From: a virus
IMG/VR virus record: IMGVR_UViG_3300042881_003513
Location: 1 to 63,153 of that record
Direction: 5' to 3' (one strand)
Length of the DNA stretch: 63,153 nt
The position numbers and the translations under genes were made by a program. Shown piece by piece: positions 7,718 to 51,170 of this stretch (positions are counted from its first letter, which is position 1; every line of letters begins with the position of its first letter). The notes under the pieces were generated by a model. It searched no databases. It was not told the DNA's origin and saw only the letters and a program-made list of their open reading frames with translations.

Positions 7718-7765
7718 ACGCTTGCGCGATTTCGTCTCGCGGCTCGGCATGGCGAGGCAAACGCA

Positions 7766-7800: not shown

Positions 7801-7839
7801 CCGCTTGACCTCGCCGATCCGATGCAGGATGCGCGGAGT
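7797..7839 (+). promoter_or_regulatory. Candidate promoter with CCGATGCAGGA block, copy 1
   Basis: TTTTCCGC and TTGACC (7805-7810) are followed by CCGATGCAGGA (7819-7829). Closely similar arrangements stand before the portal gene (23501-23545) and the scaffold gene (32737-32782). It starts within the T-tail of the preceding terminator. No A/T-rich -10 box is visible. Confidence 0.5.
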
Positions 7840-9348: not shown

Positions 9349-9357
9349 TTCACACAC

Positions 9358-18300: not shown

Positions 18301-21300
18301 GCGGACGTGCGCGAGGTTGCGGAAATCTCACCCGACGGGCAGACGTTCCAGAACAAGGCGAAATTCGTCGAGTTCAAGAACATGCAGAGCCTTATCACGA
18401 TGTTCCGACGGTATGTGGACATCCAGCGCCAGGAGCAACTGAACCTTCCGGTCCCGCCCCTCTTTGGCGGCAAGATTCAGAACATCGTGTTCCAGCCGAC
18501 TCAGGTTGTTCAGGACTACATGGCCGAGGTCGTCGAGCGCGCGGAGGCGCTGCGCGGCGGGAAAGTGGATCCGAGGGTGGACAACTGGCTCAAGCTGAAC
18601 ACGGACGCCCGAAAGATCAGCACGGACCCGCGGTTGATTGACGCGAATCTGCCGGACGATCCTGAATACAAATCCTCGCGCATCGCGAAGAACACCTACG
18701 AAATCTGGAAGGCGAACGACTACCGCAAGGGCACGCAGATCGTATTTTGTGACCTGTATTCCAACAAGGTCGAGCGCGCCAGGAAGAATGCCTTCGGGGA
18801 GCCGGAGCGTTACAAGCGCGGACCGAAACGCGGGCAGCCCATCGTCGAGAAAGTTGAACTGTTCAACGTGTTCACCGACATGAAGGACAAGCTGATCCGC
18901 ATGGGCGTGCCGGAGGACCAGATCGCCATCATCCACGATTACGAGAAGGATGAGGACAAGGAGGAACTGAAAAGCAACTTCAACGCCGGCAAGATTCGCG
19001 TGCTTCTCGGCACAACGATGAAGCTCGGCACCGGCATGAATCTTCAGCGGCGGATGGTCGCGGTTCACAGCATGGACGCCAATTATCGCCCTGACCAGAT
19101 GACGCAGCGCGAGGGCCGCGGCATCCGGCAGGGAAACCTTTTCCACGAGGCGACTATCGGCGGCAAGAAGGCGCCGGGACGGATGCCGCAGCAACCGAGC
19201 TACGAACTCAGCAAGGACGGCGCGCTCACGACCGGGCCGGGCGGAAAATTCGGCCCTTTCAACATCATCATCACGCGCAACGCGGTAGAGCGCACGCTGG
19301 ACAGCCGTATCTACCAGACGATCACGACGAAAACGAAGATCGTCGAGGATCTGCTGAACGGAGATTACAAGGGCGACACCGCTTCCGACATCAGCGACGC
19401 CGAACTGCGCGGGCAGGAAATGATTGCCGCGGCGAGCGGGAACCCGCTGGTCATGGAGCGCTTCACGCTCGAAAACGAAGTGCGCGATCTGAAGATCAGT
19501 CAGGAGGACTTTGACAGGCGACAGGCGCGAATCCGAAAGGAAATCCGCGAACTCACAAGCGGCATCGAGGAAAATGATCGCGCCATCCCGCATGTGGACG
19601 CGCTTCGGGATGCCCACCGCGCCGCCGACGCCGACATTGATCGCCGGGTCAAGGAGGGCGAGGAGGCCAAGCAAAAGGAACTTTCGGACAAGCATGTATT
19701 CGACCCGGAGACGCCTTTCGTCGTGACTCGGGACGTGAAGAAAAAGGGAAAGCAAACCGAGCTTGAGCTTGCGAAGGAAAAGATCGGAGAGGGCGAGAAG
19801 GAGGAAGTCCCGATGACGATTCTGGACATGCTCAAGGAGCCGCTGAAGAAGACGAAGAACAACCCGGACGGCGAACTCGAATTGCGCGCCTTCGGATTGA
19901 ATGGGCGACTCACGCGGAAATCCGAGCGCATTGAGGCGGCGCAAAGTCTCACGGGAGAATCACGCCTCCGCCACACGTTCAGTTGGAATTACACCGGGGC
20001 CAGCGCGTCGAAGTTTGAATTTGCGACGCAATACAACGACGAGGCGCCAGAGCTTTACAAATACTCAGGAGATAGCCCGCTGCCGAAGTTCAAGGAGCAG
20101 CGCGATTACCTCATCGAGCGCGCCGCGCATCAGTGGCTTTACGACAACGCGAGGCAGACCGATGTTGAAGTGGGCGGAACTCGCTTCACGACATTGCAGG
20201 AGGCAGTCAAGGCACTTGAGCCAAAGCTGAACGCGCTGAAGAAAGGCGAATCGCTTTCGTTCAAGGAGAACGGCGTGGATGTGAGCGTGAAGGCGGAGGA
20301 AAAGAAATCGCTCACCGAGGACGAGAAGAAGAACGCCGACATGCTCGGTGTTGTTCCGATGCTCTATCACGCCAATTTCCCGGCGCTGAAGGACGTTGGT
20401 GCGCAGGCTTACAATCCGCTCGCTTCAAGTGATGCCAGCCAACTGATTTGGCACATCGCCAATTCCCTGAAGTGGATCCCGTCGTCGGAGCAGATTCAAA
20501 AGAACGTCGCCGATCAGAAGAATCAGTTGAAGATGAAGCAGGACGCAGTTCAGACGGCGTTCCCGGAGGCGGATCAACTGGACGAGAAACAGGCGCGACT
20601 CGCGGAGGTGGTGCGTCTCACATCCGGCGATCCGCACGCGCGAACCGCGGATCCGAATGACGATGACGGGCAGATTGCTGACGACGGAAGCGGCGAAACC
20701 TTCTCCGCCGCCGCGCCGGAACGCCGCGCCACCGACGCCGTGGCAGCAGGCGCGAAGGGGCGCGAGGAGACGAAGGAAGACCGCAAGGCGGCGCAGGCCG
20801 CCACGTTCGCGACGAAGCCCCCGGGTGTCGCGTCGCAGATTTGGGATGCCGTCAAGACCGCTGGCAGCGCGACGAAAAGGTGGTGGGGCGAGATGCCAGC
20901 CTACGACACGATTGACAAGGCGATCGGCCAATGGCTCGGGGCAGGGGACAGCGCACCGCTCAAGGGCACCGACATCGTGATCCCCGGCAGACAGAAGGCC
21001 GCGCACGAATCCCGCAAGCTCGTGGAGACGATCGTGAAGCAATTCCCGAACGTGCTCACACGCCAGGCGATCAGCCGCTACATGGAGGCCGACGGCGACA
21101 AGGCCACGCTGCAAAAGTGGGCGGACAAGTCGAAGCCGGAAATGAAGGCGGTGTATGAGCGCGCGCTGAACCTGAACGCCGCGGAGAAGGCGATGGCGGA
21201 CACGGCCAAGACGTTCTTCAAGGAGAAGGGCGAGGAGGCGCAAAAGCTCGGGCTGCTCGGCAACCTGCTGGAGAACTACGTCACGCACTTTGTCGAGAAG

Positions 21301-23256
21301 GCGCCGGCCAACCAGCGCAGCGGGCTCATGGCGCGCATCCTCGGCGATCTCGCCAGCGACACGCCCGCGAGCAAACTGAAGACGAAATTTGACCACGCCA
21401 TCAAGCGCGTGTTCGCGAGCATGTTCGATCTGGAACAGGAAGGGCACTCGCTGCGCGGCGGCGGCGACATCGCAGGCACGCTCGGAGCCTACGCGCAGGC
21501 GGCGAACAACACGGTCGCGGATCGGGTGTTCGTGAAGTCGCTCACCGACATCATGGCGCGCGACGGCCGCCCGATGGCAGTGCCAAGCGGAGCAATCACC
21601 AGGACGGACGGATCGGCGGACTCCCCGCTGCTCATCAAGCCGCACACGCACCCGGCGGACACTTCCGACTACCGCCCGATCTCGCACCCGGCGCTTCGCA
21701 AGTGGAAGTGGCTCGGCAAAGAAGGCGAGAAGGACGTTCTTGTGGAAGGCGAACTACTCATCCACCCCGACCTCTACAAGCGGCTGAAAAACACGCTCGG
21801 CACCTCGGCGCTGAACAACGTGCCGATCATCAAGGCCGTCGGCGAGTTTCAGGCCATCGTGAAGCAGCTCATGCTTTCGTTCTCGCCGTTCCATTTCGTG
21901 CAGGAGGGCACGCACGCCATCGGCCACAAGGTCAACCCCTTCAAAGTGACGGAGATCGACATGGACGATCCGGCGACACGCGAACTAGTGAACGCCGGGC
22001 TCATGCTCGCGAACTGGAACGCCAAGGCGGAATTTGGCGAGGGACTGACGGCGAGCGGCATGGAAAAGCTGCTCTCTCACATCGGACTCGGGAAGCTCGG
22101 GAAGCTGAACGACACGATGAGCGCGTTCCTTTTCGAGAAGTACATCCCCGGTCTGAAAATCGCGATGGCGAAGGAGGCGATGGTGCGCAACATGGAGCGG
22201 TTCAAGAAGGATCTGGCCTCCGGCAAGATGACGCGCGAACAGGTCGCACAGAAGACCGCGCAGCAGGCCAACGACGCATTCGGCGAACAGAACAACCTCT
22301 ACGCGGGCAACAACCCGACGCGCCTGCACTTCGAGCGCCTGCTTTTCCTCGCCCCGGACTTCCTGAAGTCGCGCGCCAAGTTCTTCGCCGATGCGTTCCG
22401 CAAGCACGGCAAGGAGCAACGCAACGCGCTCATCCTGCTCGCCGTCGTCCTCGCAGTGACCGCGAAGCTCCTTGAGCGGATGCTGACCGGCAAGAACGAT
22501 TGGGAGAAGCCTTTCAGCGTGGTGACAGAGGGCCGCGAATACGAGCTGCGCAGCGTCCCCGGCGACGTGATCGCGCTGCTCAAGAACAGGCGGCAGTTCG
22601 TCATGGGGCGTATTTCCCCGCTCATCAGCCGCACCGCGCTCGAAGCGGCCACCGGGCGCGACTGGCGCGGCCAGCAGCGTTCCGGCGCGCAGCAGGTGAA
22701 GGATCTCGCCATGACGCCGCTCCCGCTTGCCCTGCGTGGCGTGATCGACCCGGAGGCACCGGACATCTCCGCGGCGGAGTCGCTGATCAGTTCCTCGGGA
22801 CTGCGCACAATCCGGCACAGCGAAATCACCAAGGCCCGCAAGCTCGGGCGCGAGTGGCAGAAGGCCAACGGAAGCGAGCATGTGGACGAAGTGCATCCGC
22901 CGTCGAAATACGTCGGGATCAAGAACGCGCTCGAAGACGGCGACAGCGCGCGGGCGATGAAGGAATACGGGAAGCTGCTCGCCACGATGCCGAAGGATAA
23001 GGCGGACACCGGATTCCGCTCGTCGCTCATGAAGCCGTTCAGCGGGAGTCTCGCAAACGAGAAGGCGTTCGTCGCCTCACTCGATGCCGACGACCGCGCC
23101 ACGTATCAGGCGGCGATGACGAAGCGCGGACGGATGCTGGCAGCCTTCACGCGCATGTCCGCGACGACGCGCGCGCCGGCCAATGCGCCGCGGGCCGCAG
23201 CGAAGGCCGCGCCGATCGGGAGCCGCAATCTCACGGTGAAGGAGTTCTTCAGGTAG
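9358..23256 (+). CDS. Giant polyvalent protein with DNA methylase and SNF2-type helicase domains
   Basis: A single uninterrupted 4,632-residue protein, 22 percent of the genome. Hydrophobic Gly/Ala-rich segments lie near 430-480 and 540-580. A zincin-like helix with GEEVLHKG lies near 1261. An adenine-specific methylase core has EPSMGIGSFYG (from 1949) and NFPF (2014-2017) in place of NPPY. An SNF2-like helicase follows, with GGGKT (2722-2726), DEAH (2890-2893) and QREGRGIRQG (from 3250). The C-terminal 800 residues are helical with one membrane-like segment (NALILLAVVLAVTAKLL). FSAAAPE occurs at 1653 and 3782 at domain borders. This resembles DarB-like polyvalent proteins that enter the host with the DNA and protect it from defences. 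The virion location is inferred. Confidence 0.85.
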   Translation: MGFDAYEQLAVDPGAVGDVARSILETPSQPGESYADTQYRSAQQAGATARIQAIKGKQWAARGVPSYQDMQGNTKPVMDDTGSPLSKLDPKHNIAYDSTGSPKKIDFDVAGGSPVLKDPFEGLETTTDPKTGHQYKIAPGLPWRWVGTDAQTAQKAEFARQDANLSKASAALGRKLTLTEYDEKFHRDAIKDVRSQLKQLSVADTNSVTGDPLDYDSLVAGINSQFDDLKKNDTTANAKEYFGMGGYTPEALKAQQALDLSRTAALRAAAKGHAHAQTLDGIRQQAEAVRAQRMMIEQTKLDHETEILKAQGIDISQPRQQYGDTPEDSAQNEQIAQSAGVHPATAQAYKQAVAGQKPYAIEGGKPKPIDGKYEEGLTAAAQDGLIAPPAPEVLEAARTADAKYQELIKQAGGNQKLKAFIASGVKSYTALQAGMAASALVAPFDPELAAGGAALGGVGAVVVPMLAHGVAFLAGMFGANKALDALSEKAAEYSDDMASIQAAIKLQPGAAQLGNFAGMGPAAIKSAMNLSKAAGVAAAEATGAGASGAKAAAGYLGKTAGTGAVGGAIFETTIRPGFDWMVDQIGGALGGEKEGVQAPTVGSVLEMAGIGALLSGLHLKIKDIGTAEATDIVKRGMQAMRDGKSLDQVLSPSENDAFMSIGEKLAKMKESGEALIKDPERFSINVRQVLTGEDRPAGDYAKVARDAEIRRTPRQKEIRDKDTFEFQKDGQTDWEAIGNKHGITAAEAQAEYARATQIAGPVQARTTNIEGVEPMKAGLPEPEAQPPASATAKPVTPNPKPAEPGTTNIGEKLGSELDKVEVTPEPPAPTEPAPAAVAKVSPEIPSDLDQRIAPVMEDFTQRLADADRKIAMAKGQGNSDVIAEAKAEKDAIFEDMKQRLGTDIPEQVPQIVRDRLESGTHDWEDGRGLREKEAYRYVIDQHEGEQGMGEPSFYVIRNLDTGKESDPYEKREDAEAFLRAHGKGGVAPEGWVEPEKPSVLPDAKPPHEKIIGESQFHSDRRELGKPTTFKTWEAYDSWLKTKSDKFLTDALGTQAKNLIDQIKQEASGMRIPKSDRSNLETRINIGAVFKEALRRGLPVPESEGLSQYTGSRPARKEAPRQNALPEPPAPNEPKLPASERNDQSQPEGAKPAGGASEVAKTEEGKPGGEPAGQAGGKPDAETVERRKKIVGTVNVAMRGHAKELSNLGHIARAHEAELPESNKSGIALHNGKITVDAEKLDAATEQMTPKERETYINAAIGEEVLHKGFMNFVNESPANRARALKLIEDEPAAVEYLQKHYKGFDALDPEHKAAEIARVIMQGKAGVTTESTWKFIEDLIAHIKRILGNMTDATRKLIADIEARMKGAETEKAAKKPKAEKPATRPERRDLNPDEQRKVDALRAEIKKLNQGRPVADDMAMNDKGASLARLEKQIAEKQGEIDGIYDNARKAETPEKPKPKSNSVGVNERGQQLYEDENGVRYRIEDGVKISAPVYIVPTRAGVKAQKQTPEGEWRTAEEAAAEKPKPPLPNLESQKPAVLEPHATFAERRALSEKWLNTLSPDALLKKMAEYGVPATRAQKVWDKARNRKPDDTKDYAEDFQLEAGDDLSFWEKSAKSPLPNRGSVLPEKKADAPKLSPGAQAIKDKLGDLFSAAAPEPRYDAPIPREKRDALNSLTADLIDSHGVDTPEKLAAALTELGPKALAFSQNIWFKMKSEGAQGSAEPNWKSIYAQLAPEPKTDIVTPDEQPATTPKLESPADDNGDGGTTPGGAESGAGGKITGGGKVEGATGGTGEEPVSDGEGASSGGKIKAGSEGDSDERVGDISAGRGNLRLELSDGIGEGGLTRKFRDNVSAIKTLRAIEAERRDATPEEQKTLARYVGWGGLAEKAFQPGGEFYDEMQALGLSDDEMASARRSTTNAHFTAPEMVQGIWGALAKMGFQSGRITEPSMGIGSFYGFMPAEIARYSSLTGIEMDNLTSRIAKVLYPESKVWNRPFEKHVMADNSQDVIVSNFPFSDADHPNDPRYNKINPNLHDYFFLKSLDKVRPGGFVVAITSIGTMDKMGSAVREVLSAKANLVAAFRLPNTMFKGNAATEVTTDLIILQKRGPGVPMEHKDWLNPVHITTRTGDEIRINQYFRDNPSNMLGIMTSEGKMYGKTTAGEDAKKVGSKALLSDGRTVAQLIEQIKKTLPENIFVPEDKQAATIRNADELEFDPNSEKDGSFVLHKNEVKVFRGGEVERPRKEISPTTKRHTLLSGYIESGHVEIDDDGTVKRTGAAWPESKNPTDIKLRAEIEAGDITGEQYKEFREVEEKYEDPLTGSERTTTVERQFSTYAFDGDFTKADYERIKQLIPLRKSLKAVLHAQVTNADDATLAAMQKDLNVFYDTYVKENGFLHEGKTRAAFQDDPFYPALMALEDYDATNNETTKTDIFSKRTRPRKEPLTGLTGTTRENMTKIMAQTGKVDVELQAKLSMRDPDELGDEMVREGLVFRDAVTGNYVEREEYLSGNIYEKLHAAEEAAKSDESFRKNIEELTKAIPELRPVERIGFSLGAAWIDPHTYSEFVKHIYRDRGQASEFKYKNGRWEVNVPVRGNAEGFGTEDVSTEELISQSMNLSSPTVRKRFDDGSSVVLEKETKLARMAQNRLKQEFKNFILDNPDIHEPLVKKFNELANAIRPRTYDAPYSTLEGMNPEISLRKHQLDFVWRATVDGKAVAAHVVGGGKTFAFIGAGMEWKRMGLASKPMYIVPNHLLRSGQTASDFYRMYPTAKILTVTERDFTAKRRQRLMARIATGNWDAVLIGHSQIGSIPVSPDLMAAHIQGELAELEEALRATNDEVDPNSKQGKKRIKALEASLAAKRSKMEKLLDPRRADKALYFEELGVDAIIIDEAHEFKNLNFWTKLNNIGGLGSANTETIKTAQLKVKTDYILRQNNGRNLLFATGTPITNTIAEVYLLQKYIAQDLLDAAGIKYFDEWAQMFADVREVAEISPDGQTFQNKAKFVEFKNMQSLITMFRRYVDIQRQEQLNLPVPPLFGGKIQNIVFQPTQVVQDYMAEVVERAEALRGGKVDPRVDNWLKLNTDARKISTDPRLIDANLPDDPEYKSSRIAKNTYEIWKANDYRKGTQIVFCDLYSNKVERARKNAFGEPERYKRGPKRGQPIVEKVELFNVFTDMKDKLIRMGVPEDQIAIIHDYEKDEDKEELKSNFNAGKIRVLLGTTMKLGTGMNLQRRMVAVHSMDANYRPDQMTQREGRGIRQGNLFHEATIGGKKAPGRMPQQPSYELSKDGALTTGPGGKFGPFNIIITRNAVERTLDSRIYQTITTKTKIVEDLLNGDYKGDTASDISDAELRGQEMIAAASGNPLVMERFTLENEVRDLKISQEDFDRRQARIRKEIRELTSGIEENDRAIPHVDALRDAHRAADADIDRRVKEGEEAKQKELSDKHVFDPETPFVVTRDVKKKGKQTELELAKEKIGEGEKEEVPMTILDMLKEPLKKTKNNPDGELELRAFGLNGRLTRKSERIEAAQSLTGESRLRHTFSWNYTGASASKFEFATQYNDEAPELYKYSGDSPLPKFKEQRDYLIERAAHQWLYDNARQTDVEVGGTRFTTLQEAVKALEPKLNALKKGESLSFKENGVDVSVKAEEKKSLTEDEKKNADMLGVVPMLYHANFPALKDVGAQAYNPLASSDASQLIWHIANSLKWIPSSEQIQKNVADQKNQLKMKQDAVQTAFPEADQLDEKQARLAEVVRLTSGDPHARTADPNDDDGQIADDGSGETFSAAAPERRATDAVAAGAKGREETKEDRKAAQAATFATKPPGVASQIWDAVKTAGSATKRWWGEMPAYDTIDKAIGQWLGAGDSAPLKGTDIVIPGRQKAAHESRKLVETIVKQFPNVLTRQAISRYMEADGDKATLQKWADKSKPEMKAVYERALNLNAAEKAMADTAKTFFKEKGEEAQKLGLLGNLLENYVTHFVEKAPANQRSGLMARILGDLASDTPASKLKTKFDHAIKRVFASMFDLEQEGHSLRGGGDIAGTLGAYAQAANNTVADRVFVKSLTDIMARDGRPMAVPSGAITRTDGSADSPLLIKPHTHPADTSDYRPISHPALRKWKWLGKEGEKDVLVEGELLIHPDLYKRLKNTLGTSALNNVPIIKAVGEFQAIVKQLMLSFSPFHFVQEGTHAIGHKVNPFKVTEIDMDDPATRELVNAGLMLANWNAKAEFGEGLTASGMEKLLSHIGLGKLGKLNDTMSAFLFEKYIPGLKIAMAKEAMVRNMERFKKDLASGKMTREQVAQKTAQQANDAFGEQNNLYAGNNPTRLHFERLLFLAPDFLKSRAKFFADAFRKHGKEQRNALILLAVVLAVTAKLLERMLTGKNDWEKPFSVVTEGREYELRSVPGDVIALLKNRRQFVMGRISPLISRTALEAATGRDWRGQQRSGAQQVKDLAMTPLPLALRGVIDPEAPDISAAESLISSSGLRTIRHSEITKARKLGREWQKANGSEHVDEVHPPSKYVGIKNALEDGDSARAMKEYGKLLATMPKDKADTGFRSSLMKPFSGSLANEKAFVASLDADDRATYQAAMTKRGRMLAAFTRMSATTRAPANAPRAAAKAAPIGSRNLTVKEFFR
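14597..14896 (+). CDS. Overprinted small protein inside the giant gene (candidate)
   Basis: A 99-residue reading frame, MSNQPLPPNLKVLRMIMAM..., lies in a second frame within the giant gene. It has a normal soluble composition, with two amphipathic helices and an ending EGRSKQEARETAMNEWATFPP that resembles small phage proteins known to me with a ...eAre.A..EW...P tail. Over the same bases the giant protein is a Gly/Ser/Thr-rich linker (about residues 1747-1845), which is the pattern expected when one frame constrains the other. No clear Shine-Dalgarno is present. It could also be chance. Confidence 0.45.
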   Translation: MSNQPLPPNLKVLRMIMAMVEQRLEAQNPGLVEKLQEEGKWKAQLAERAKNLFQTERALLQEGRSKQEARETAMNEWATFPPDAETSDSNSATASAKAD

Positions 23257-23421: not shown

Positions 23422-23498
23422 CGCAGGATGGCGCAGTCCGGTAGCGCGCTTGGCTCATACCCAAGAGGACGCGGGTTCAAATCCCGCTCCTGCAACCA
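23422..23498 (+). tRNA. tRNA-Met (CAT), initiator-like
   Basis: A complete 77-base cloverleaf with encoded CCA. The acceptor CGCAGGA/TCCTGCA has a C1 x A72 mismatch, the hallmark of bacterial initiator tRNA. The D-arm is GCGC AGTCCGGTA GCGC, the anticodon arm CTTGG CTCATAC CCAAG, the variable loop AGGAC, and the T-arm GCGGG TTCAAAT CCCGC. Two of the three G:C pairs expected at 29-31/39-41 of initiators are present; the third is T:A. The 11-24 pair is C:G, as in elongators. It lies 47 bases upstream of the portal start. Confidence 0.9.
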
Positions 23499-43533: not shown

Positions 43534-43734
43534 ATGCCCGAAGGCAAAAGGATCACCACGCTGGAGCAACTCGCCGCGGCGAGCGCGGCGAAGAAGGCGA
43601 TTGTCACACGCACTCAGTTCTTCACCAACCGGCACATGCCCGCTGCCTTTATCCTCAATATGTCCGGCAGCGTGCTCCACTGCATGATGAGGCAAGGAAT
43701 GTTCATCTACACCCCGAAAAAATCCGAACCATGA
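43534..43734 (+). CDS. Small hypothetical protein
   Basis: A 66-residue protein (MPEGKRITTLEQLAAASAAKKAIV...) placed between the annealase and exonuclease genes. It ends KKSEP-stop in the repeated start motif and so is translationally coupled to the exonuclease. No family was recognised. Confidence 0.6.
   Translation: MPEGKRITTLEQLAAASAAKKAIVTRTQFFTNRHMPAAFILNMSGSVLHCMMRQGMFIYTPKKSEP
43718..43733 (+). promoter_or_regulatory. Start-context motif AATCCGAACCATGA, copy 4
   Basis: AAAATCCGAACCATGA encodes the SEP-stop of the upstream gene and the ATG at 43731. It is an exact match to copy 2. Confidence 0.6.
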
Positions 43735-44864
43735 TCAGATCATCCACATCCCCATCCAATTTGCACAGGCGCGTGCGCTGCCCTGGCTCGCACGCGGCTG
43801 AATTGGGCCTGCCCGAGCAGAACAGCGAATACGCCGAGGAAGGCACCCGCCTGCACGCCGCGCTGGAAGACAGCGCGGGATGCGAAGGACTCGACGAAAA
43901 GCAGATCGAACTCGTGCTTTCGACACGGGAAATCTTCGCCGAGGTCATCGAGCGCACGGTCGCTGCGATGGCGATTCCGCCGGATGCACCGTTCACAGAG
44001 GGCTACGAGCGCGAGCTTCGCGTGCGGAGCAAGCTGCGCACGGTGATGATCGGCCATTGCGACCATTGGCGCTACTACCCCGATCAGAAGGTGCTGGTGA
44101 TCACGGACGCCAAGTTCGGATTCATCGAAGTCACGCCGGCCCCGCTTAACCTTCAACTGCGCGCATACGCGGTGATGGGCTCACAGGAGTGGGATGTTGA
44201 ACATGCCGTCGTCGCCATCGCGCAGCCTCGCGCCGGCATGATCGACGACGCCGAGAAACTGACGATCGCGCAGTATGACCGCGCCGACCTCGCCCTAGCT
44301 CACGCGCAGATTCTTGAATGGGAGTGCGAATGGTTGAAGCCGTTCGCGCCGCGCGTGCCTTCCGAGGATGCGTGCAGGTATTGCAAGGCCAAGCTGCTTT
44401 GCAATCAGTACGCCGAGCGGATGGGATCGCTGAAGGGTGATGTCGTCGCCGGGATTGCTGATCTGCCGGAGGATCGGTTTGCCCTGCTTTTCGAGGCGCT
44501 GAAAATCGCGGCGAAAGCCGACACGCAAAAAGCAATCTTGGCCGAGGCCCGCGTGCGCGTCGCCGAGGGGCGGCTACCCGGCTACCGACTCAAGCCGAAC
44601 GCAGCGCGACGGTCGATCACCGACAACGCGAAGGCGTCGGCGATCCTTCGGGACGGGCTTGCGTTCACGCAGGATGAGATCGCGGAAGCGAGTTCGCTTT
44701 CACTCGGCGAGGCCGTGACCGTGCTTCGCCGCAAAGTGAAGTTCAAAAACGAGGCCGAGGCGACCAAGTGCCTGCGCGACACGCTGGCGTCGGTGATCGA
44801 ACTCAAAACGCCGGAACCGAGCGTGGTTCCGGTTTCATCGCATGATGCTGCGAGGACTGTGTAG
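43731..44864 (+). CDS. DUF2800-type exonuclease (Cas4/lambda-exo-like)
   Basis: A 377-residue PD-(D/E)XK nuclease. NLHRRVRCPGSHAAE and EEGTRLHAALE open the domain, GHCDHWRYYPDQKVLVITDAKFG carries the catalytic Asp and Lys block, QLRAYAVMG and QPRAGM follow, and CRYCKAKLLC is the cysteine cluster. It trims double-stranded DNA to give single strands for the annealase three kilobases of operon upstream. Assignment is confident by motif order. Confidence 0.88.
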   Translation: MIRSSTSPSNLHRRVRCPGSHAAELGLPEQNSEYAEEGTRLHAALEDSAGCEGLDEKQIELVLSTREIFAEVIERTVAAMAIPPDAPFTEGYERELRVRSKLRTVMIGHCDHWRYYPDQKVLVITDAKFGFIEVTPAPLNLQLRAYAVMGSQEWDVEHAVVAIAQPRAGMIDDAEKLTIAQYDRADLALAHAQILEWECEWLKPFAPRVPSEDACRYCKAKLLCNQYAERMGSLKGDVVAGIADLPEDRFALLFEALKIAAKADTQKAILAEARVRVAEGRLPGYRLKPNAARRSITDNAKASAILRDGLAFTQDEIAEASSLSLGEAVTVLRRKVKFKNEAEATKCLRDTLASVIELKTPEPSVVPVSSHDAARTV

Positions 44865-44917
44865 CGATGAAGCTCAAGGGATGCACCGGGAACGCGCTCC
44901 GAAACGGGACTGACTTC

Positions 44918-45934
44918 ATGACTACCAACACGCCTCCTCAACTGAACGCCAGGGTGCCGTCCGTATCATCCGCTGGTTCGGAGCCGGATTTAGTCGGCGC
45001 GAGCACACGATGCGATGGGAGCCGTGGCGGTGCGCGTGGTGTGCGGTCGGATTCAGATTTGGCACCGGACAAGAGGCCCAATGGAGTCAGCGTGGCGCTT
45101 GCTTCCGCGCAAGGTAGTCCGGTGCCATTCACTTTGCTGGCTGGCGACTGCCGCGAGACTTTGCGCGGGCTGCCGGCCGCGTGCGCGCAATGCTGCGTGA
45201 CCTCGCCGCCATACTGGAATCTCCGCGACTACGGGCACGCCGACCAAATCGGGCAGGAGGCGACGCCAGAGGAATACGTTGCCAGTCTCGTGAAGGTGTT
45301 TCGCGAAGTCCGGCGGGTGCTCGCGCCCGATGGGACACTGTGGCTGAACCTCGGAGATACCTACTGGAAGAAGCAACTCGTCGGCATCCCGTGGCGCGTG
45401 GCGCTTGCTTTGCAGGCGGATTCGTGGTGGCTGCGCTCGGAAATCATCTGGCATAAAGAAAACGCGATGCCGGAGAGCACGACGGACCGGCCAAGTCGTA
45501 GCCACGAAACAATCTTTCTGTTCGGTGCCTCCGAGAGCTACCGTTACGACGCAGAAGCAATCAAAGAGCCGATCCAGTCAGACCGCGCGCCGAGCCGAAA
45601 GGCGAAGGCCACTGGCGCGGGGCACTCCGAACTTCGAGGAGGCACACCCTACGACGGGAGCGGGACGCATCGCAACCGCCGCACGGTCTGGACGGTGCCA
45701 ACGGCACCGTATCCGAATGCTCACTTCGCCGTTTATCCGGCGACTCTCATCGCGCCTTGTATCCTCGCCGGGAGTCAGCCCGGCGAGGTGGTGCTCGATC
45801 CTTTCGGCGGGAGTGGAACGACGGGAGCCACCGCGCTGACTCTCGGGAGAAAAACGATCCTGTGCGAACTCAACCCGGAATACGCGAAGCTCATCGAGCA
45901 ACGCACGACAACCACCTTTGGATTGCCTCTATGA
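44918..45934 (+). CDS. DNA methyltransferase (N4-cytosine/N6-adenine, SPPYW type)
   Basis: A 338-residue protein counted from ATG 44918; an upstream in-frame ATG is at 44867. TSPPYWNLRDYG is motif IV, and DPFGGSGTTG near the C-terminus is the S-adenosylmethionine motif I, giving the beta-class order seen in SPPYW enzymes. The first 70 residues are unrelated, Ser/Arg/Gly-rich and may be non-native sequence joined to a captured gene; they lie downstream of a degenerate attC-like word at 44862. Probable role is modification of phage DNA against host restriction. Confidence 0.8.
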   Translation: MTTNTPPQLNARVPSVSSAGSEPDLVGASTRCDGSRGGARGVRSDSDLAPDKRPNGVSVALASAQGSPVPFTLLAGDCRETLRGLPAACAQCCVTSPPYWNLRDYGHADQIGQEATPEEYVASLVKVFREVRRVLAPDGTLWLNLGDTYWKKQLVGIPWRVALALQADSWWLRSEIIWHKENAMPESTTDRPSRSHETIFLFGASESYRYDAEAIKEPIQSDRAPSRKAKATGAGHSELRGGTPYDGSGTHRNRRTVWTVPTAPYPNAHFAVYPATLIAPCILAGSQPGEVVLDPFGGSGTTGATALTLGRKTILCELNPEYAKLIEQRTTTTFGLPL

Positions 45935-46152
45935 ACCGTCCAAATTACGACAACGTAGCTGACGCAATACGCGGCGCAATGGCTAGGCTGTGCCGGGCTG
46001 TATCACGTCGAATGATGCCGGATGAACCAACGCCGGAAGATAGGATCGAGATGCTGGAGGCATACGCGGCGGCGTGCGCCTTGCTGGAGTCATGCCAGCC
46101 GAACGACAAGCTCTGCCGCGAGCAGGGCGGAAAGGACTCCGATGGCAGGTGA
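45931..46152 (+). CDS. Small hypothetical protein
   Basis: A 73-residue helical protein (DNVADAIRGAMARLCRAVSRRMMPDEPTPEDRIEMLEAYAAAC...). It overlaps the methylase stop by ATGA. The last 18 residues lie inside the first attC-like site, which implies that recombination could alter its end. No family was recognised. Confidence 0.55.
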   Translation: MNRPNYDNVADAIRGAMARLCRAVSRRMMPDEPTPEDRIEMLEAYAAACALLESCQPNDKLCREQGGKDSDGR

Positions 46153-46191
46153 ACCGCGGCGACATGGAGACGGCGCAGCGCATGGTTCGCT
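46098..46191 (+). other. attC-like integron recombination site 1
   Basis: GCCGAAC (46098-46104) and GTTCGCT (46185-46191) are complementary-type ends (RYYYAAC/GTTRRRY). GAACGACAAGCTC and GCGCAGCGCATGG are the conserved inner blocks shared with the other four sites. Pairing of GCTCTGCCG with CGGCGCAGC is imperfect. Confidence 0.55.
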
Positions 46192-46237
46192 TCCTCGCCT
46201 ACCCGCAAGACCTTGGGTTGCGAGTCAGCAATACTCC

Positions 46238-46375
46238 ATGCGCTTCATCCTCTCACGAGACAACGAAATACTGTGGCGGTGTGACTTCGTGCCGATGCCG
46301 GTACTCAAGGCGATGGTGGACGCCGCCAATGCAGCAATGGAAGCGAACGAAAAGCTCACCGACGCGCCGGGATAG
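46238..46375 (+). CDS. Small hypothetical cassette protein
   Basis: A 45-residue protein (MRFILSRDNEILWRCDFVPM...). Its last codons (EKLTDAPG, stop) are inside attC-like site 2, and the same ending EKLTDAP occurs in the methylase at 48400-49239. A longer version from an upstream start is possible. No function was recognised. Confidence 0.45.
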   Translation: MRFILSRDNEILWRCDFVPMPVLKAMVDAANAAMEANEKLTDAPG

Positions 46376-46461
46376 CGCGTCAAAAACACACTGACTCTTA
46401 TGAAAAAGATACCCATCAAAAACACGAAGAAGGCGCGTTCGAGTGCAGCGCATGGTTCGGC
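46343..46461 (+). other. attC-like integron recombination site 2
   Basis: R'' GCGAAC (46343-46348) and R' GTTCGGC (46455-46461) flank arms GCTCACCGACGCGCC (46454-excluded; 46354-46368) and GGCGCGTTCGAGTGCAGC (46432-46449). They pair over 15 positions, leaving G, T and A unpaired on the second arm, the extrahelical-base pattern of attC. The site includes the stop of the upstream gene and the ATG at 46400. About 115 bases recur at 49207-49324. Confidence 0.75.
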
Positions 46462-46663
46462 GCACTCGTTGGCTGCAACTATTGCCGCCGCCCTGTTCAC
46501 GAGCGGGGACGGCAAGAGGGCGTCCAGACTACATTTCATCCTCGAAAGCGGGGACGTGTGGGGCGGCTGGAGTGAAGCGGCAGTCGCAGCACAGATCGAG
46601 AAGCTGCTCAGTGCGCCGAACGATGGAACTTACGGACAGACCCCTCACAACCCGACCACATGA
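46400..46663 (+). CDS. Cassette protein with attC-encoded N-terminus
   Basis: An 87-residue protein. Residues 1-20 (MKKIPIKNTKKARSSAAHGS) are encoded by the attC-like site and recur as MKKKTVKNTKKARSSAAHGS in the gene at 49263. The rest (LAATIAAALFTSGDGKRASRLHFILESGD...) is unrelated to the other copy. It appears to be a translational fusion across the recombination point. No function was recognised. Confidence 0.5.
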   Translation: MKKIPIKNTKKARSSAAHGSAHSLAATIAAALFTSGDGKRASRLHFILESGDVWGGWSEAAVAAQIEKLLSAPNDGTYGQTPHNPTT

Positions 46664-46977
46664 GCACGCCAAGAATCTGCCCAAGCTGCAATAACTACCT
46701 GTTTGACGACGAAGCGCCGAAATGCGTCTGCGCAAATAACTGCGCGCCCGAACCGGAGCGTTCGAGTGAGGGGGCTGTTACGTGCAGTGACTTGATCTGC
46801 GAATGGGAAGCCGCGCTCTCGACGGCAGAGAAGATGATGAAGGAGACCGAACGCAAGGAAGGCTCCACATACTACTACTGGCAGGGGCGATACGATGAGG
46901 CCGAAAGCGCGTTGGATCGGGCGCGGAGACATTCGCAGATCGGTGAGCACAGCAACACGCCGACACCACACCAATGA
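46660..46977 (+). CDS. Zinc-ribbon hypothetical protein
   Basis: A 105-residue protein with CPSCN near residue 8 and CVCANNC near residues 23-29, which would bind zinc, and an acidic helical C-terminal half (CEWEAALSTAEKMMKETERKEG). It overlaps its neighbours by ATGA. No family was recognised. Confidence 0.55.
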   Translation: MSTPRICPSCNNYLFDDEAPKCVCANNCAPEPERSSEGAVTCSDLICEWEAALSTAEKMMKETERKEGSTYYYWQGRYDEAESALDRARRHSQIGEHSNTPTPHQ

Positions 46978-47951
46978 GCACTCCACCTGACCTACTCACT
47001 CCGCACGGCAGCACGACAACAGGCGTGTTTGCTGCTGCGGCTGGTTATCTTTCCGCCGTTGAAGTTCACGACCCTGCCACGAAGCAGAGTGCATCTTGGA
47101 GCGGGGGGACTTCTAAAACACAAGCCGAAGGCCCAATCCACATCATCTCGCTCGGCGCGGGCGTGCAAAGCTCTACGATGGCGCTGATGGCGGCGCACGG
47201 CGAGATCACGCCGATGCCCACGGCGGCGGTGTTCGCGGACACACACGCGGAACCGGAAAGCGTGTATCGCTGGCTCGAATGGCTGGAAACGAAACTGCCG
47301 TTTCCGGTGCATCGCGTGAGCAAAGGCGACCTCGCCCGCGTGTCGCTGACTGTGCGCGACAAGAAAGACGGCACCGGAAAATGGGTGAAGTCCCTAATCC
47401 CGGCGTTCATCCAGAATCCAGACGGAAGCCGTGGAATCATGGGGCGTGCCTGCACGTTCGATTACAAGGTGATGCAGTTGGAAGCTGCGGCGAAACGAAT
47501 CGGCGAGATCAAGCGGAACCAAAAGACGGTCGGCGTGATCCAGTGGATCGGAATCAGCCTCGACGAAGCGCATCGCATGAAGCCTGCACGCAAGGCGTGG
47601 GTGGAGCATCGCTGGCCGCTGATAGACGCGGGCATGAAGCGGCACGATTGCTTGCGGTGGATGGAGCGGATGGGCTACCCGAAGCCTCCGCGCTCGGCCT
47701 GCATCTACTGCCCGTTTCACAGCGACGCTGAATGGCGAAGATTGAAGGACGAGGAGCCGAAAGAGTTTGCTCGCGCGGTGCAATTCGAGCGCGACCTGCA
47801 ACACGCGAAATCTCAGACGGACAACCAGCGTGGAAAGCCGTTCCTGCACAACTCACTGAAACCGCTCGACCAGGTGGATCTGAGCACGGACATCGAACGC
47901 GGACAGGGCGAGATGTTCGGAAACGACTGCACGGGGCTTTGCGGCGTATGA
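46974..47951 (+). CDS. PAPS reductase/ATP-pyrophosphatase-like enzyme
   Basis: A 325-residue protein. SLGAGVQSSTMALM (from residue 59) is a PP-loop-like ATP-binding motif, and FADTHAEPESVYRWLEWL and GRACTFDYKVMQLE are typical of phage phosphoadenosine-phosphosulfate reductase-like proteins. Cysteines at 243 and 246 (CIYC) and 319 and 323 may bind a metal or iron-sulfur cluster. The first 55 residues are unrelated. Such proteins are thought to modify nucleic acids or nucleotides; the substrate is unknown. It lies between attC-like sites 2 and 3, so it may be a captured cassette gene. Confidence 0.7.
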   Translation: MSTPPDLLTPHGSTTTGVFAAAAGYLSAVEVHDPATKQSASWSGGTSKTQAEGPIHIISLGAGVQSSTMALMAAHGEITPMPTAAVFADTHAEPESVYRWLEWLETKLPFPVHRVSKGDLARVSLTVRDKKDGTGKWVKSLIPAFIQNPDGSRGIMGRACTFDYKVMQLEAAAKRIGEIKRNQKTVGVIQWIGISLDEAHRMKPARKAWVEHRWPLIDAGMKRHDCLRWMERMGYPKPPRSACIYCPFHSDAEWRRLKDEEPKEFARAVQFERDLQHAKSQTDNQRGKPFLHNSLKPLDQVDLSTDIERGQGEMFGNDCTGLCGV

Positions 47952-48033
47952 CTCGTGCAACCGCCAGCGTCCGCTTTCGAGGAATGCGTGTGGGGCTTCC
48001 GAAGGGTAGCGCCGACCCTCGGCACTCTGAGTC

Positions 48034-48162
48034 GGGGAACAATCAAGCTCAGAGACCGCGAGCCGGGAGCGGGGCATCTGAAACAATACCGGCATCCAAA
48101 ATACCATGAAACACCGAATCCAAACCGCCAAGCTCGCGGTTCTCTGCAGCGCCTTGTTAGCC
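48034..48162 (+). other. attC-like integron recombination site 3
   Basis: R''-like GGGGAAC (48034-48040) and R' GTTAGCC (48156-48162). Arms GCTCAGAGACCGCGAGC (48047-48063) and GCTCGCGGTTCTCTGCAGC (48132-48150) pair perfectly over 17 positions, with one G and one A left unpaired. It overlaps the start of the lipoprotein gene. Confidence 0.75.
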
Positions 48163-48378
48163 CTTGGCGCTTGCTCGAAAGACCCAATCAGCAAGGCCGG
48201 AACGAACAATCCTGAAATCACCGTTGAACTCCTATTCGAGAAGGACGGCGTGAAGGTCTATCGCTTCACGGACTCGGGTAGAAGCATCTACTACACCGAT
48301 GCGCGTGGGCGCACGGACTGGTCAGTGAACCAAGGCAAGAACGGCGTCCGTCACTTCGGCGTGGAGACAGCGCAATGA
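48106..48378 (+). CDS. Small lipoprotein
   Basis: A 90-residue protein. Its signal peptide (AVLCSALLALGACSKDP, lipobox Cys near 24) is encoded largely within attC-like site 3. The mature part is beta-rich (EITVELLFEKDGVKVYRFTDSGRSIYYTDARG) and resembles a class of short phage lipoproteins of the DUF4884 kind. It would be exported to the envelope, perhaps for superinfection exclusion. That role is inference. Confidence 0.6.
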   Translation: MKHRIQTAKLAVLCSALLALGACSKDPISKAGTNNPEITVELLFEKDGVKVYRFTDSGRSIYYTDARGRTDWSVNQGKNGVRHFGVETAQ

Positions 48379-48382
48379 AAAG

Positions 48383-48472
48383 GGCTAACGAATAAGCTCA
48401 TGGACACGCCTCACTTCGCTCTCGAATTACAGGAACCGCTCAAGGCGTGTTCCATGCAGCGCATGGGTCTGC
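48383..48472 (+). other. attC-like integron recombination site 4
   Basis: R'' GGCTAAC (48383-48389) and a degenerate R' GGTCTGC (48466-48472). Arms GCTCATGGACACGCCT (48396-48411) and AGGCGTGTTCCATGCAGC (48443-48460) pair over 16 positions, with extrahelical G and A. The ATG at 48400 lies in the first arm. Confidence 0.65.
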
Positions 48473-49239
48473 GAACGCCCGGACAAGAGCCGCGCGTGGC
48501 ACGCACGAAAGATGCGGTGCGGAGCGGAGTGGGCGGAGTTCTGCGCTCCGTGTATGAGGACCAGCACGACATCCTCGAAGCCATCCGGCAACTGCACTGC
48601 CCCGAAGGCTACGAAGCAGATTTGACGTTTGGAAATGGTAGCTTCTGGAAGCGCCTGCCGCGCCCGAAATACTGCTTCGACGTGACGCCGCTGCATGAGG
48701 GCGTGGTGCAAGCGGACTCGCGGATGCTGCCGCTCGCGCCAGCGAGCCTCGGCAACGCCGTGTTCGATCCGCCGTTCCTGACCTACGTGCAAGCCGGACG
48801 CGCCCACAAAGAGGGCAAGGTGGCGATGACTGCGCGCTTCGGTGGATACTACCGCTACGACGAACTGGAAGACCACTACCGGGACACAATCAGCGAGTGC
48901 TACCGAGTCCTGCGCCCGAAGGGCAAACTGGTCTTCAAGTGCCAAGACATCATCCACAATCACCGGATGCACTGCACGCACGTCAACGTCATCCAGATGG
49001 CCGAAATCGAAGGCTTCCGGCTCGCGGATTTGTTCGTGCTTCCGGCCCGCCATCGGATGCCGTCGCCGCAACGCGGCACCCAACGGCACGCACGAATCTT
49101 CCACAGTTACTTTTTGGTGTTCGAGCGCGATGCCTCTGCGGGCGGCGGGGGTGCGGAGCTGGGGGCAAATAAGAGCAAGCGTGGAACGAAGAGCGGCGCG
49201 CGTTCGCAGACCGAAAAGCTCACCGACGCGCCGAGATAG
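48400..49239 (+). CDS. DNA methyltransferase-like protein (DPPF type)
   Basis: A 279-residue protein. FDPPF at 122-126 is a motif IV, with a class-typical context (ECYRVLRPKGKLVFKCQD and a Gly-rich pocket around ADLTFGNGSFWK). Residues 1-25 are encoded by attC-like site 4, and the last residues (EKLTDAPR) by site 5. It probably methylates DNA; base specificity is unknown. A shorter start at the MQRMG methionine (residue 20) is possible. Confidence 0.7.
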   Translation: MDTPHFALELQEPLKACSMQRMGLRTPGQEPRVARTKDAVRSGVGGVLRSVYEDQHDILEAIRQLHCPEGYEADLTFGNGSFWKRLPRPKYCFDVTPLHEGVVQADSRMLPLAPASLGNAVFDPPFLTYVQAGRAHKEGKVAMTARFGGYYRYDELEDHYRDTISECYRVLRPKGKLVFKCQDIIHNHRMHCTHVNVIQMAEIEGFRLADLFVLPARHRMPSPQRGTQRHARIFHSYFLVFERDASAGGGGAELGANKSKRGTKSGARSQTEKLTDAPR

Positions 49240-49324
49240 CGCCTCGCAAACACACTGACTTTATGAAAAAGAAAACCGTCAAAAACACGAAGAAGGCGCG
49301 TTCGAGTGCAGCGCATGGTTCGGC
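49207..49324 (+). other. attC-like integron recombination site 5
   Basis: Nearly the same sequence as site 2. Arms GCTCACCGACGCGCC (49218-49232) and GGCGCGTTCGAGTGCAGC (49295-49312) pair identically, and R' GTTCGGC is at 49318-49324. R'' is degenerate (ACC in place of AAC). It holds the methylase stop and the ATG at 49263. Identity with site 2 begins and ends at the site borders. Confidence 0.72.
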
Positions 49325-49511
49325 GATTCCCGCGTCGAAGCTACTACGAGCCGAAGCAACCCGCCTCGACGTGCTGAAACACGCGATGCCAGATGCAGCC
49401 GAGGACATGATAGCGGCTCAGGTGTGGGCCTACAACATGGCGGCGGCATACCTCGACGCTCTAGGCGCGCCGGAGAAACTGGTGCGCTACGTGCCTTCGC
49501 CGAACAGATGA
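49263..49511 (+). CDS. Cassette protein with attC-encoded N-terminus
   Basis: An 82-residue protein. Residues 1-20 (MKKKTVKNTKKARSSAAHGS) are encoded by attC-like site 5 and match the gene at 46400. The rest is a helical segment (ASKLLRAEATRLDVLKHAMPDAAEDMIAAQVWAYNMAAAYLDAL) unlike the other copy. The stop follows a GCCGAAC word at 49499. Function unknown. Confidence 0.5.
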   Translation: MKKKTVKNTKKARSSAAHGSAIPASKLLRAEATRLDVLKHAMPDAAEDMIAAQVWAYNMAAAYLDALGAPEKLVRYVPSPNR

Positions 49512-49536
49512 TTCCGCAGAAAAAAATCCGCATATC

Positions 49537-49617
49537 ATGAAAAAGACAGAACTGATCGAACAGCTACAAATCGCGATTCGGCGCAAGCACTACAACTACG
49601 CGACCGTGAACCAATGA
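49537..49617 (+). CDS. 26-residue peptide upstream of helicase
   Basis: MKKTELIEQLQIAIRRKHYN leads into YATVNQ and a stop overlapping the ATG of the helicase (ATGA). AAATCCGCATATCATGA precedes it, a degenerate start-context motif. It may be a real small protein or a leader peptide that couples translation. Confidence 0.4.
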   Translation: MKKTELIEQLQIAIRRKHYNYATVNQ

Positions 49618-51170
49618 TCGCCCGCCCTTACCAATCCGCCTCCGTCGAGAGCGTAGAGCAGGCATTTCGCGAGTTTTCCAAAGTGCTCGGCGTGGCTGCG
49701 ACCGGGGCCGGAAAGACGATCGTGTTCTCGATGTTCACGCAGCGGCACCTTGCGGAATCGGACACGAACCGCGTGCTCATCATCGCGCACCGCGAGGAAC
49801 TGCTGACTCAGGCGGCGCAGAAACTCATGCGCGCGACGGGTATCAACTCCGAACTGGAGCGCGCGGATGCGCGCGCAAGCCTCGACGCCCGCGTGGTGGT
49901 CGCGAGCATTCAGACACTCTGCCGACGCTTCGAGCGGTTCCCGGCGAACCATTTCACGCGGATCATCGTGGATGAATGCCATCACGCACTGGCGGACAGC
50001 TACCAGCCGGCGCTCCAGTATTTCCTCGGCGGCAGCGCGAAAGTCTTGGGCGTGACTGCAACGCCGGGAACGAAGGGCAAGAAGGCGCTCGGGAATTTCT
50101 TCGAGACGATCGCTTTCGAGGTCGGGCTGATTGAGTTGATCCGCGCGGGCTACCTATCCCCGATCAGCGTCAAGAGCTTCCCGCTCATCGGCGGGGGCGC
50201 GGAACCGATCTCGTTTGCGGTCAAGAATGGCGACTACGATCAGGAGCAGGTGGATCACGCCCTCGATCCCTACCTTGAGAGCATCGTTGCGCGGCTCGGC
50301 GCGGAGATTGGCGACCGTAAGACGCTCGTTTTTCTGCCGCTCATCAAGACGGTGGAGCGGTTCGTGGCGCTGTGCAATGCGGCGGGACTGAAGGCCGCGG
50401 GCGTGAGCGGCGTGAGCGAGGAACGGGCAGACATCCTTTCCGCGCACGGCACGGACTTTCAGATCCTCGCGAACTCGATGTTGCTGACCGAGGGCTATGA
50501 CGACCCGGCGATCTCGGCGATGATGATCCTGCGGCCGACGCGCTCAGAGATTCTTTTCTCGCAAATGGTGGGGCGCGGCACGCGAGTCTATTGCCCGTGG
50601 GGATGCACCGAACGATGCACGCACGGATCGCGGAAGCGCAACCTGCTGTTGTTGGATCCGCTTTGGCTCCACGAGGACATGAACCTGGTGCGACCGGCGA
50701 ACCTTGTGACCGGACGAGACGAGGACCGCAGGAGCATGAGCGAGCGCGTGGCGGCGAAGCAGGAGGAACTCGATCTTCTGAACATGCTCGCCGACGCGGA
50801 GCATGACCGGGAAAAATCACTCGCCGAGAAGCTGGCGCGCATGGAGAAGCGAAAGACGAAGACGATCAGCGTGGAGGAGTGGGCGGTGCTCGCGCACGCG
50901 CCGAACATTGCGGATTTTGAACCGACGATGCGGTGGCACGAATCGCCGATCTCGCCAAAGCAGGCGGAAATGCTGGTGCGCTTCGGCTTCGACGCCGGGA
51001 GCGTCCGGGGCCGCGGGCACGCATCGGCGCTGCTAGACGTGTTCTTTTCCCGCCGGAAGCAGGGACTCGCGACCGTGGCGCAGGTGCGGCTGATGACGAG
51101 GATGAAGCACCCGAACCCTGAGACGGAGACTTTCGCCGGCGCGAAGGCGTGGCTCGACCAACGATTTTAA
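49614..51170 (+). CDS. Superfamily 2 helicase, second copy
   Basis: A 518-residue ATP-dependent helicase. ATGAGKT at 29-35, DECH at 120-123, VTATP at about 145 and FSQMVGRGTR near 315-324 give the motif set. A helical Arg/Glu-rich extension follows. Candidate role is fork remodelling or opening of duplex DNA for the nearby primase. It differs in sequence from the helicase at 6111. Confidence 0.85.
   Translation: MIARPYQSASVESVEQAFREFSKVLGVAATGAGKTIVFSMFTQRHLAESDTNRVLIIAHREELLTQAAQKLMRATGINSELERADARASLDARVVVASIQTLCRRFERFPANHFTRIIVDECHHALADSYQPALQYFLGGSAKVLGVTATPGTKGKKALGNFFETIAFEVGLIELIRAGYLSPISVKSFPLIGGGAEPISFAVKNGDYDQEQVDHALDPYLESIVARLGAEIGDRKTLVFLPLIKTVERFVALCNAAGLKAAGVSGVSEERADILSAHGTDFQILANSMLLTEGYDDPAISAMMILRPTRSEILFSQMVGRGTRVYCPWGCTERCTHGSRKRNLLLLDPLWLHEDMNLVRPANLVTGRDEDRRSMSERVAAKQEELDLLNMLADAEHDREKSLAEKLARMEKRKTKTISVEEWAVLAHAPNIADFEPTMRWHESPISPKQAEMLVRFGFDAGSVRGRGHASALLDVFFSRRKQGLATVAQVRLMTRMKHPNPETETFAGAKAWLDQRF

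Follow-up and report, generated by a model that had tools for sequence, protein, structure and literature searches.

Integron attC sites are folding DNA sites by which bacteria shuffle antibiotic-resistance genes, and a phage genome that carries a row of them raises the question of whose cassettes these are and how they move. The genome considered here is IMG/VR virus record IMGVR_UViG_3300042881_003513, the whole of which (63,153 bases) was analysed and is called the window below; the array occupies positions 46102–49320. It had first been described, from the letters alone, as an attC-like cassette array of five sites without an integron integrase. We found seven attC sites in 3.2 kb and no match in the window to the integron integrase model TIGR02249 or to the tyrosine recombinase family PF00589, which places the array among clusters of attC sites lacking integron integrases (CALINs) rather than among complete integrons, to which an intI gene belongs. 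We put a probability of about 0.8 on the reading that this is a CALIN of a phage-carried integron lineage, with cassettes reversed against their attC sites and an integrase acting in trans.

The five sites of the sequence-only reading all exist, with starts within 3–4 nt of those it gave, and two further sites lie inside the gap that it had left. In order, the sites are S1 (46102–46187), S2 (46346–46457), SB (46619–46796), SC (46939–47046), S3 (48038–48158), S4 (48387–48468) and S5 (49210–49320), SB and SC being the additions; all are on the + strand. A structural finder blind to stem sequence, which requires a core triplet, spacing, 5, 5 and 8 paired bases, and an extra C and an extra T at set positions, identified four sites in the related contig L001 and, in the window, S3 and S4. 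On 40 dinucleotide-shuffled versions of the full 63 kb, searched on both strands, it gave two matches. In the stems of 17 aligned phage sites (set A3, mostly found by structure, so that selection favours paired cells), 84.1% of cells are paired; shuffling lowers this to 66.3%, and no slid register exceeds 46.9%. Both partners differ between sites in 10 of the 17 pairs, and the covariation score is 0.455 (0.112 when shuffled).

A covariance model trained on these 17 sites (R2) returned exactly seven sites in the window, the next-best match having an E value of 0.042. Four of them had been in training (S2, 7.4e-21; S3, 2.2e-17; S4, 4.4e-17; S5, 4.1e-18), and the three that had not, S1 (3.8e-7), SB (9.3e-7) and SC (1.1e-9), were recovered at E values of 1e-9 to 9e-7. 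R2 also found sites in 6 of 20 Verrucomicrobiota loci around intI genes. From R2 matches in Verrucomicrobiota loci, 25 bacterial sites no more than about 10 kb from a TIGR02249-detected intI (set A4) were used to train a second model, R3, which ranked the same seven window sites 1–7 at rough E values of 3e-12 to 0.006 (S1, 5e-4; S2, 6.8e-9; SB, 0.0059; SC, 0.0017; S3, 3e-12; S4, 6.5e-8; S5, 3.1e-5), followed by a match at 1.1. The covariance search that the sequence-only reading had proposed as a check is thus positive with two models, more strongly at S2, S3, S4 and S5 and less so at S1, SB and SC. An earlier model, R1, built on 17 host sites (set A1), had no base pairs, MAFFT having misaligned the loops, and was not used. 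An Rfam search of the window at gathering thresholds gave tRNA only; whether Rfam holds an attC family was not checked.

The shape of most aligned sites agrees with what an integron integrase reads, namely two extrahelical bases on one side (PMC3053210). S3 and S4 carry an extra T and C in T-N5-C spacing on the right (3′) arm of the + strand, as do 15 of the 17 aligned phage sites. Because these bases lie on the 3′ arm, the + strand is identified as the bottom strand of attC. Published work gives T-N6-G/C as the best extrahelical arrangement, with T-N5-C excised at 15% by IntI1 (PMC3053210). The first description had placed an unpaired G and one or two other bases at the same places in its sites 2 to 5. 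This stands for S3 and S4, where its G is the C seen on the other strand; in S2 and S5 the C is kept and the T is not at that place. Its GTTRRRY-type end is present in S3 (GTTAGCC) and in no other window site, most ends reading GTTCG. The core is AAC/GTT at most sites, with variants at the left in S5 (ACC) and SC (ATC/GTT) and at the right in S4 (GGT) and SB (AAC/GAT). In each case the other box of that cassette carries the matching change, GGT of S4 with ACC of S5 and GAT of SB with ATC of SC. We reject the idea that the sites are repeats within coding sequence, since all three reading frames are used across the right arms of the window sites.

A cassette of an integron array includes both the right box of one site and the left box of the following one, and these two are expected to pair. 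We compared boxes across 58 model-supported sites in 12 arrays, from 11 viral contigs and one contig of a metagenome-assembled genome (MAG), L101, with a one-base register shift allowed; three matches were used from contig L129, its weaker + matches and two − matches being left out. At least 8 nt of contiguous complementarity was found in 34 of 46 adjacent pairs, in 68 of 3,318 other pairings (2%) and in 1 of 58 same-site pairings, and at most 8 pairs reached 8 nt in any of 2,000 permutations. The S4–S5 boxes pair over 13 nt. Some cassettes are shared between contigs (L255/L001; L377/L381; L382/L383; L086/L091/L092), so these counts are not all independent. This test is preferred to an earlier box comparison in which five sites (SB, SC, E, B4 and B6) had been chosen partly by their right box.

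If cassettes move, close relatives of the phage should differ in cassette content, a variation that the sequence-only reading had named as a check and that we found in three relatives. The array-adjacent flanks of L001 and L002 are 97–99% identical to those of the window, and those of L004 are 99.6% identical on the left and 89–98% on the right, where insertions interrupt them; cassette content differs in all three. S1 is the first site, common to L001 and L004, and S2 is the point at which both diverge; the breaks in L001, L002 and L004 against the window fall at the left core of sites. Contig L001 is without the methylase cassette that lies between S4 (AAGGGCTAACGAATAAGC) and S5 (CGCAGACCGAAAAGC) in the window, and its join (AAGGGCTAACGAAAAGC) is at the canonical exchange point CTAA|CGAA. 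Among the 1,770 pairs of 60 sites, the same left flank occurs with a different body in 5 and the same right flank with a different body in none, and the same body and right flank occur with a different left flank in 4.

The same comparison bears on the idea that the sites are inert repeats and that homologous recombination of the phage swaps cassettes through shared leaders, trailers and attC arms. Different cassettes do share short 3′ trailers (window 47964–48065 and L001:5876–5976) and short 5′ leaders (window 48448–48542 and L001:7336–7430), ends held in common between which the enzyme core therefore seems exchangeable, and the boxes of SC–S3, like those of B2–B3 in L004, mismatch. Right boxes vary by site, however, and mostly pair with the next site only, a relation that homologous exchange would scramble, and the joins switch at the core, with only CGAA and a gapped AAGCTCA shared at the L001 join. 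We consider passive repeats distinctly improbable as the whole explanation.

The direction of the cassette genes sets the array apart from integrase-linked host arrays. Of the 47 cassettes in the phage set, 41 have their longest open reading frame (ORF) on the side of the attC bottom strand (the window contributing 5 of its 6), compared with 4 of 26 integrase-linked host cassettes; the phage set again includes L101, the sites of L165 come from a loose finder without a model, and intervals above 1.6 kb, one each in L178, L171 and L174, were skipped. As the longest frame is a crude guide in GC-rich DNA, gene families were examined too. Cassette genes with a family match (above the Pfam or NCBIfam cut-off, or in PHROGs), for which mainly the attC bottom strand was scanned, are all on that strand; the window and L001 contribute three each, L377 two, and L004, L090 and L386 one each. 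Among cassettes in which the opposite-strand ORF is the longer, none of 10 such ORFs is above the Pfam cut-off. Around relatives of the window methylase, 15 of 15 attC matches are on the strand of the gene. The window cassettes are thus not standard cassettes, in which gene and attC run in one direction. L101 (CAIKBP010000157.1), a 3.1-kb contig of a Verrucomicrobia MAG that may be a phage fragment, has five attC matches, and three of its four cassettes look reversed. In the 77-kb viral contig L129, one attC group (17–93 and 378–477) is on the − strand and another (4324–4908) points the opposite way, on the + strand.

The genes themselves, all on the + strand, begin inside the sites. Gene 1 (46142–46375, 77 amino acids (aa)) has its start codon in S1 and its tail in S2; gene 2 (46400–46663, 87 aa), starting in S2, has no Pfam or PHROG match. 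Gene 3 (46660–46977, 105 aa) overlaps gene 2 by ATGA within SB and matches no family above cut-off, and neither does the longest opposite-strand ORF of its cassette, which is 8 aa longer. Gene 4 (46974–47951, 325 aa), starting in SC, resembles phosphoadenosine phosphosulfate (PAPS) reductases (phrog_424, E = 2.3e-50), with no Pfam or NCBIfam match. Gene 5 (48106–48378, 90 aa), starting in S3, is a small DUF4884 protein (PF16225, E = 1.2e-7; 31.8 bits, cut-off 30) with what reads as a lipoprotein-like start. Gene 6 (48400–49239, 279 aa), starting in S4, belongs to the DNA methyltransferases (phrog_24333, E = 5.7e-71; PF01555 at 2.2e-4, below cut-off) and is the cassette missing from L001. Gene 7 (49263–49511, 82 aa), starting in S5, has no family. 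Across the arrays, 46 of 58 sites contain the start of an ATG frame of at least 60 residues (random positions, 45%), and 18 of 58 show an ATGA overlap with the upstream frame (random positions, 10.5%).

Start codons in loops and frequent ATGA overlaps are also what would be expected if the hairpins were RNA elements for translational coupling of phage genes. Such elements would leave unexplained the pairing of neighbouring sites across a whole cassette, the switching at the left core and the detection of the sites by a model built from integrase-linked attC, and reading of the right arms in the window is not confined to one frame but uses all three; we regard this explanation as extremely unlikely.

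Many cassette genes are without a family, and DNA modification is the commonest kind among those that can be named. In L001 the cargo includes an MT-A70 protein, a Mom-like XF1762 protein and a GNAT protein; L004 carries a C5 cytosine methylase, L090 a Mom protein and L377 an MT-A70 protein. We infer that this cargo is used against host restriction, as has also been proposed for phage methylase cassettes by Qi et al. (PMC9892861). Relatives of the window genes found elsewhere are near attC at 6 of 61 methylase loci, 1 of 78 PAPS reductase loci and 0 of 14 lipoprotein loci; 80 PAPS reductase relatives had been found, of which L256 and L257 were left out as their contigs were already covered.

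An integrase that could work such sites is encoded elsewhere among viral contigs. Contig G303 (locus L178), whose methylase is 72% identical to that of the window, encodes an integron integrase (TIGR02249, 259.8 bits, just below the cut-off of 265) with a stretch that we take to be the IntI-specific insertion. With relatives at least 64% identical to this protein, 12 viral contigs carry it in all, two pairs of the loci being near-copies. R2 finds attC in 10 of the 12 loci, with 24 of 24 matches on the strand of intI. An attI-like element of 31–53 nt that begins AAC(A/G) precedes intI and ends at its start codon. The right box of the last attC pairs over 9–12 nt with the flank of the attI-like core in all but one (L380) of 10 loci, or in 7 of 8 once near-copies are set aside, which marks the element as the probable attI junction. 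Locus L178 has two attI-like copies, at 723–768, before intI, and at 2530–2572, each abutting a cassette (the second junction by reading).

In a tree, the 12 phage IntI proteins fall on one branch (support 100/100, length 2.2) apart from 14 Verrucomicrobiota IntI proteins, which come from those of the 20 host loci that yielded a long enough protein by pattern. The single clade is partly by construction, because all 12 were fetched with one query; the branch length is not. The best match of the L178 protein in 288 Verrucomicrobiota genomes is 43% identical, and those in phage records are at most 40% identical. Phage genes adjoin intI in several loci: small and large terminase and portal in L378, terminase in L382, a virion protein in L377, and an exonuclease, helicase and primase in L386. 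In G303, terminase- and portal-like genes follow the array by reading; as PHROGs gave one of the two proteins searched a weak match of unknown function and the other none, its viral nature rests on the call of the collection. A PAPS reductase cassette in L386, 50% identical to that of the window, starts inside the attC that adjoins attI and intI. On these comparisons, a distinct phage-borne integron-integrase clade exists beside attC of the window type.

Another tyrosine recombinase, such as a phage integrase or XerC/D, might work the sites instead. Array-bearing contigs G010, G302 and G308 do encode non-IntI PF00589 proteins. The window and its relatives G001–G004, by contrast, have no PF00589 or integron integrase match, and most aligned sites have two extrahelical bases on one side, the feature read by IntI (PMC3053210), which makes another enzyme highly improbable. 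Contig L129 has a tyrosine recombinase that is not IntI at 7123–8103, 2.2 kb away from attC.

At its downstream end, the window array has a box that may be a remnant of attI. At 49497–49541 (+), TCGCCGAAC is followed by GATTCCGCA..CCGCATATCATG and pairs over 9 nt with the right box of S5. The attI-like score of 49500–49541 is equalled by 1 of 3,000 random positions, and nhmmer gave no match there at E 5 or better. A 26-codon frame overlaps it (49537–49617, +) and resembles the N terminus of phage IntI, ranking 6th at E 2.5 in a hidden Markov model (HMM) search of 1,673 peptides. Together, the two are suggestive of a relic of a lost integrase region.

Profile searches identified terminase, portal, major head, helicase and tail proteins in the window. 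Its terminase has matches in 37 of 50,697 phage records (22–26% identity among the ten listed), and its array region has a DNA match in none of these records. To the left of the array lie a PD-(D/E)XK exonuclease (43731–44864, +; phrog_69, E = 9.3e-36) and an N6/N4 DNA methylase (44867–45934, +; PF01555, E = 4.7e-51), and to the right a ResIII/DEAD helicase (49614–51170, +; PF04851, E = 1.8e-26). In L004, a helicase is split by an insertion (9470–10029 and 10858–12013) that is intein-like by reading, with an HNH-like stretch just upstream. Elsewhere in the window, a single 4,632-codon open frame (9358–23256) lies between the terminase and portal genes, and a tRNA-Met gene (23422–23498) stands at the start of the portal frame.

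That a phage should carry such an array is less unusual than the sequence-only reading had supposed: Qi et al. (2023, PMC9892861) reported 17 CALINs after screening 10,705 phage genomes, and described phage integrons and CALINs linked to host integrons. Its arrays resemble that of the window in being attC arrays without integrase in phage genomes, with methylase cassettes among them, and five of six phage attC sites tested recombined with IntI1 (PMC9892861). The cassettes of TJE1 and PH101 all run in one direction and the attC sites of P12002L are divergent, and the excerpted account describes no array of genes reversed against their own attC (PMC9892861). R2 gave nothing at E 1 or better on three known phage CALINs (L175–L177; MW202573, P12002L and TJE1); it is therefore specific to the attC type of the window, and its counts are lower bounds. 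In open-licence literature, the scope of our search, with preprints and most subscription journals outside it, there was no account of reversed cassettes or of a phage IntI clade of this type. What is new here is the reversal of cassettes against attC; phage CALINs themselves were already known.

Three other systems can be set beside the array. The Verrucomicrobiota integron L169 (G154:C1) has attC of the same shape, most of its sites bearing the T and C at the same five-base spacing and on the same arm (L169:5725–5806, R2 E = 6e-13), and differs in that its genes run with attC, starting just after R′. In the Treponema-type integrons (PMC3607928), intI and the cassette genes share one direction, as they do in the phage arrays; there it is intI that is turned, whereas here the cassette genes are turned and the order intI–attI–attC is standard. 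The virus Rctr41k (KX853513, L390) has a phage-borne IntI-like protein (38% identical) with methyltransferases nearby; its five weak attC-like matches (E = 0.0004–0.008) lie on the other strand, after the gene, which would leave the genes unreversed and intI turned, so that it is possibly a phage integron with standard cassette polarity and a turned intI. In that record the IntI-like gene is labelled xerD (4680–5678), and the attC-like matches, at 6645–10097, lie between genes, two of them before methyltransferases.

The host of the lineage is probably a member of the Verrucomicrobiota, in which attC of the window type is present in 23 of 288 genomes, some with near-identical arms, and intI is above cut-off in 79 of 288. 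An exact-pattern search of host genomes gave 29 stretches, of which the structural finder supports L101 only; the other 28 have no finder match and look like chance or coding matches. These host counts, together with the published host-linked phage integrons and CALINs (PMC9892861), would also suit a piece of an ordinary host chromosomal CALIN picked up by the phage, with attC now passive; 9 of 30 single genomic sites look reversed and 21 standard, in what is a weak orientation test. Against such a piece, polarity is reversed here (41 of 47 phage-set cassettes, against 4 of 26 integrase-linked cassettes of hosts); cassette content also varies between close relatives, and a separate phage IntI clade stands beside the same attC type. 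We think a passive host piece unlikely, and the capture of ordinary host cassettes, as the first description had it, does not fit genes that run antiparallel to attC, unlike those of integrase-linked Verrucomicrobiota arrays, or a separate phage clade of IntI.

We hypothesize instead a phage-carried integron lineage in which each cassette is an attC followed by a gene read opposite to it, the coding strand of the phage being the recombining attC bottom strand. The gene begins in the attC loop, in some cases overlapping the stop of the preceding gene, and an inserted cassette would therefore join the phage operon with its own start site. The integron integrase would join folded bottom strands at 5′-AA|C-3′ of the left box, so that one unit of attC and gene is excised or inserted, and would come in trans, either from a phage encoding an IntI of the phage clade or from a host integron. 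Exchange would swap DNA-modification genes, most simply against host restriction. Because the attC bottom strand is the coding (non-template) strand, recombination could be tied to transcription. At the level of sequence, the evidence covers the shape and covariation of attC, the pairing of cassette ends, the switching at left cores, the reversal in the window and its relatives, and IntI beside an attI-like element in other viral contigs with this attC type; recombination activity, the origin of the integrase, the host phylum, the role of the cargo and a loss of intI by the window are inferred from it.

A stronger form of this hypothesis is that of a native phage integron lineage, with its own IntI clade, attI directly before intI and reversed cassettes that are translated from inside the attC and kept in the operon of the phage as an exchangeable store of DNA-modification genes. 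The window phage would have lost intI and would share the integrase of co-infecting relatives, and unrelated phages would trade counter-defence genes through a pool that bacterial integrons cannot express. We hold the chances of this form to be about even, a probability lowered by the polarity of the IntI-bearing loci, in which the longest ORF is reversed in 8 of 15 cassettes and polarity by ORF length is mixed, a count that by itself does not establish reversal there; all cassette genes with a family match in these loci are reversed.

That count is one of several observations that weigh against a phage-carried lineage of reversed cassettes. In six further viral loci, reversal by longest ORF is 9 of 15, and the enrichment of ATG frames starting inside sites is moderate. 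Twelve of the 46 adjacent pairs fall below 8 nt of complementarity, SC–S3 of the window among them. S2 and S5 share their body only, both flanks being different, and the bodies of L086 and L090 are 99% identical with right flanks at 70%, so body and gene are not always transferred together; the leaders and trailers in common indicate that homologous recombination also acts. The training set of R2 holds mostly structure-found sites, and the sites used for R3 were chosen and aligned by R2. DNA folding energy was not decisive for the window sites: S2 and S5 (z = −0.25 and 0.14) do not stand out, S3 and S4 do so modestly (−1.6 and −1.8), and the − strand of S4 folds equally well (z = −2.85). The intI remnant was not significant by HMM in a blind search.

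Cassettes for restriction, methylation and other phage-related functions are known to be stored in bacterial integrons (PMC8618304). The phage side appears to use the integron machine turned round, for exchanging DNA-modification genes. If so, phages would have a site-specific route for trading counter-defence genes, which would go some way towards accounting for the methylases found in phage arrays, and the reversed polarity raises the question of whether phage and host cassette pools stay apart.

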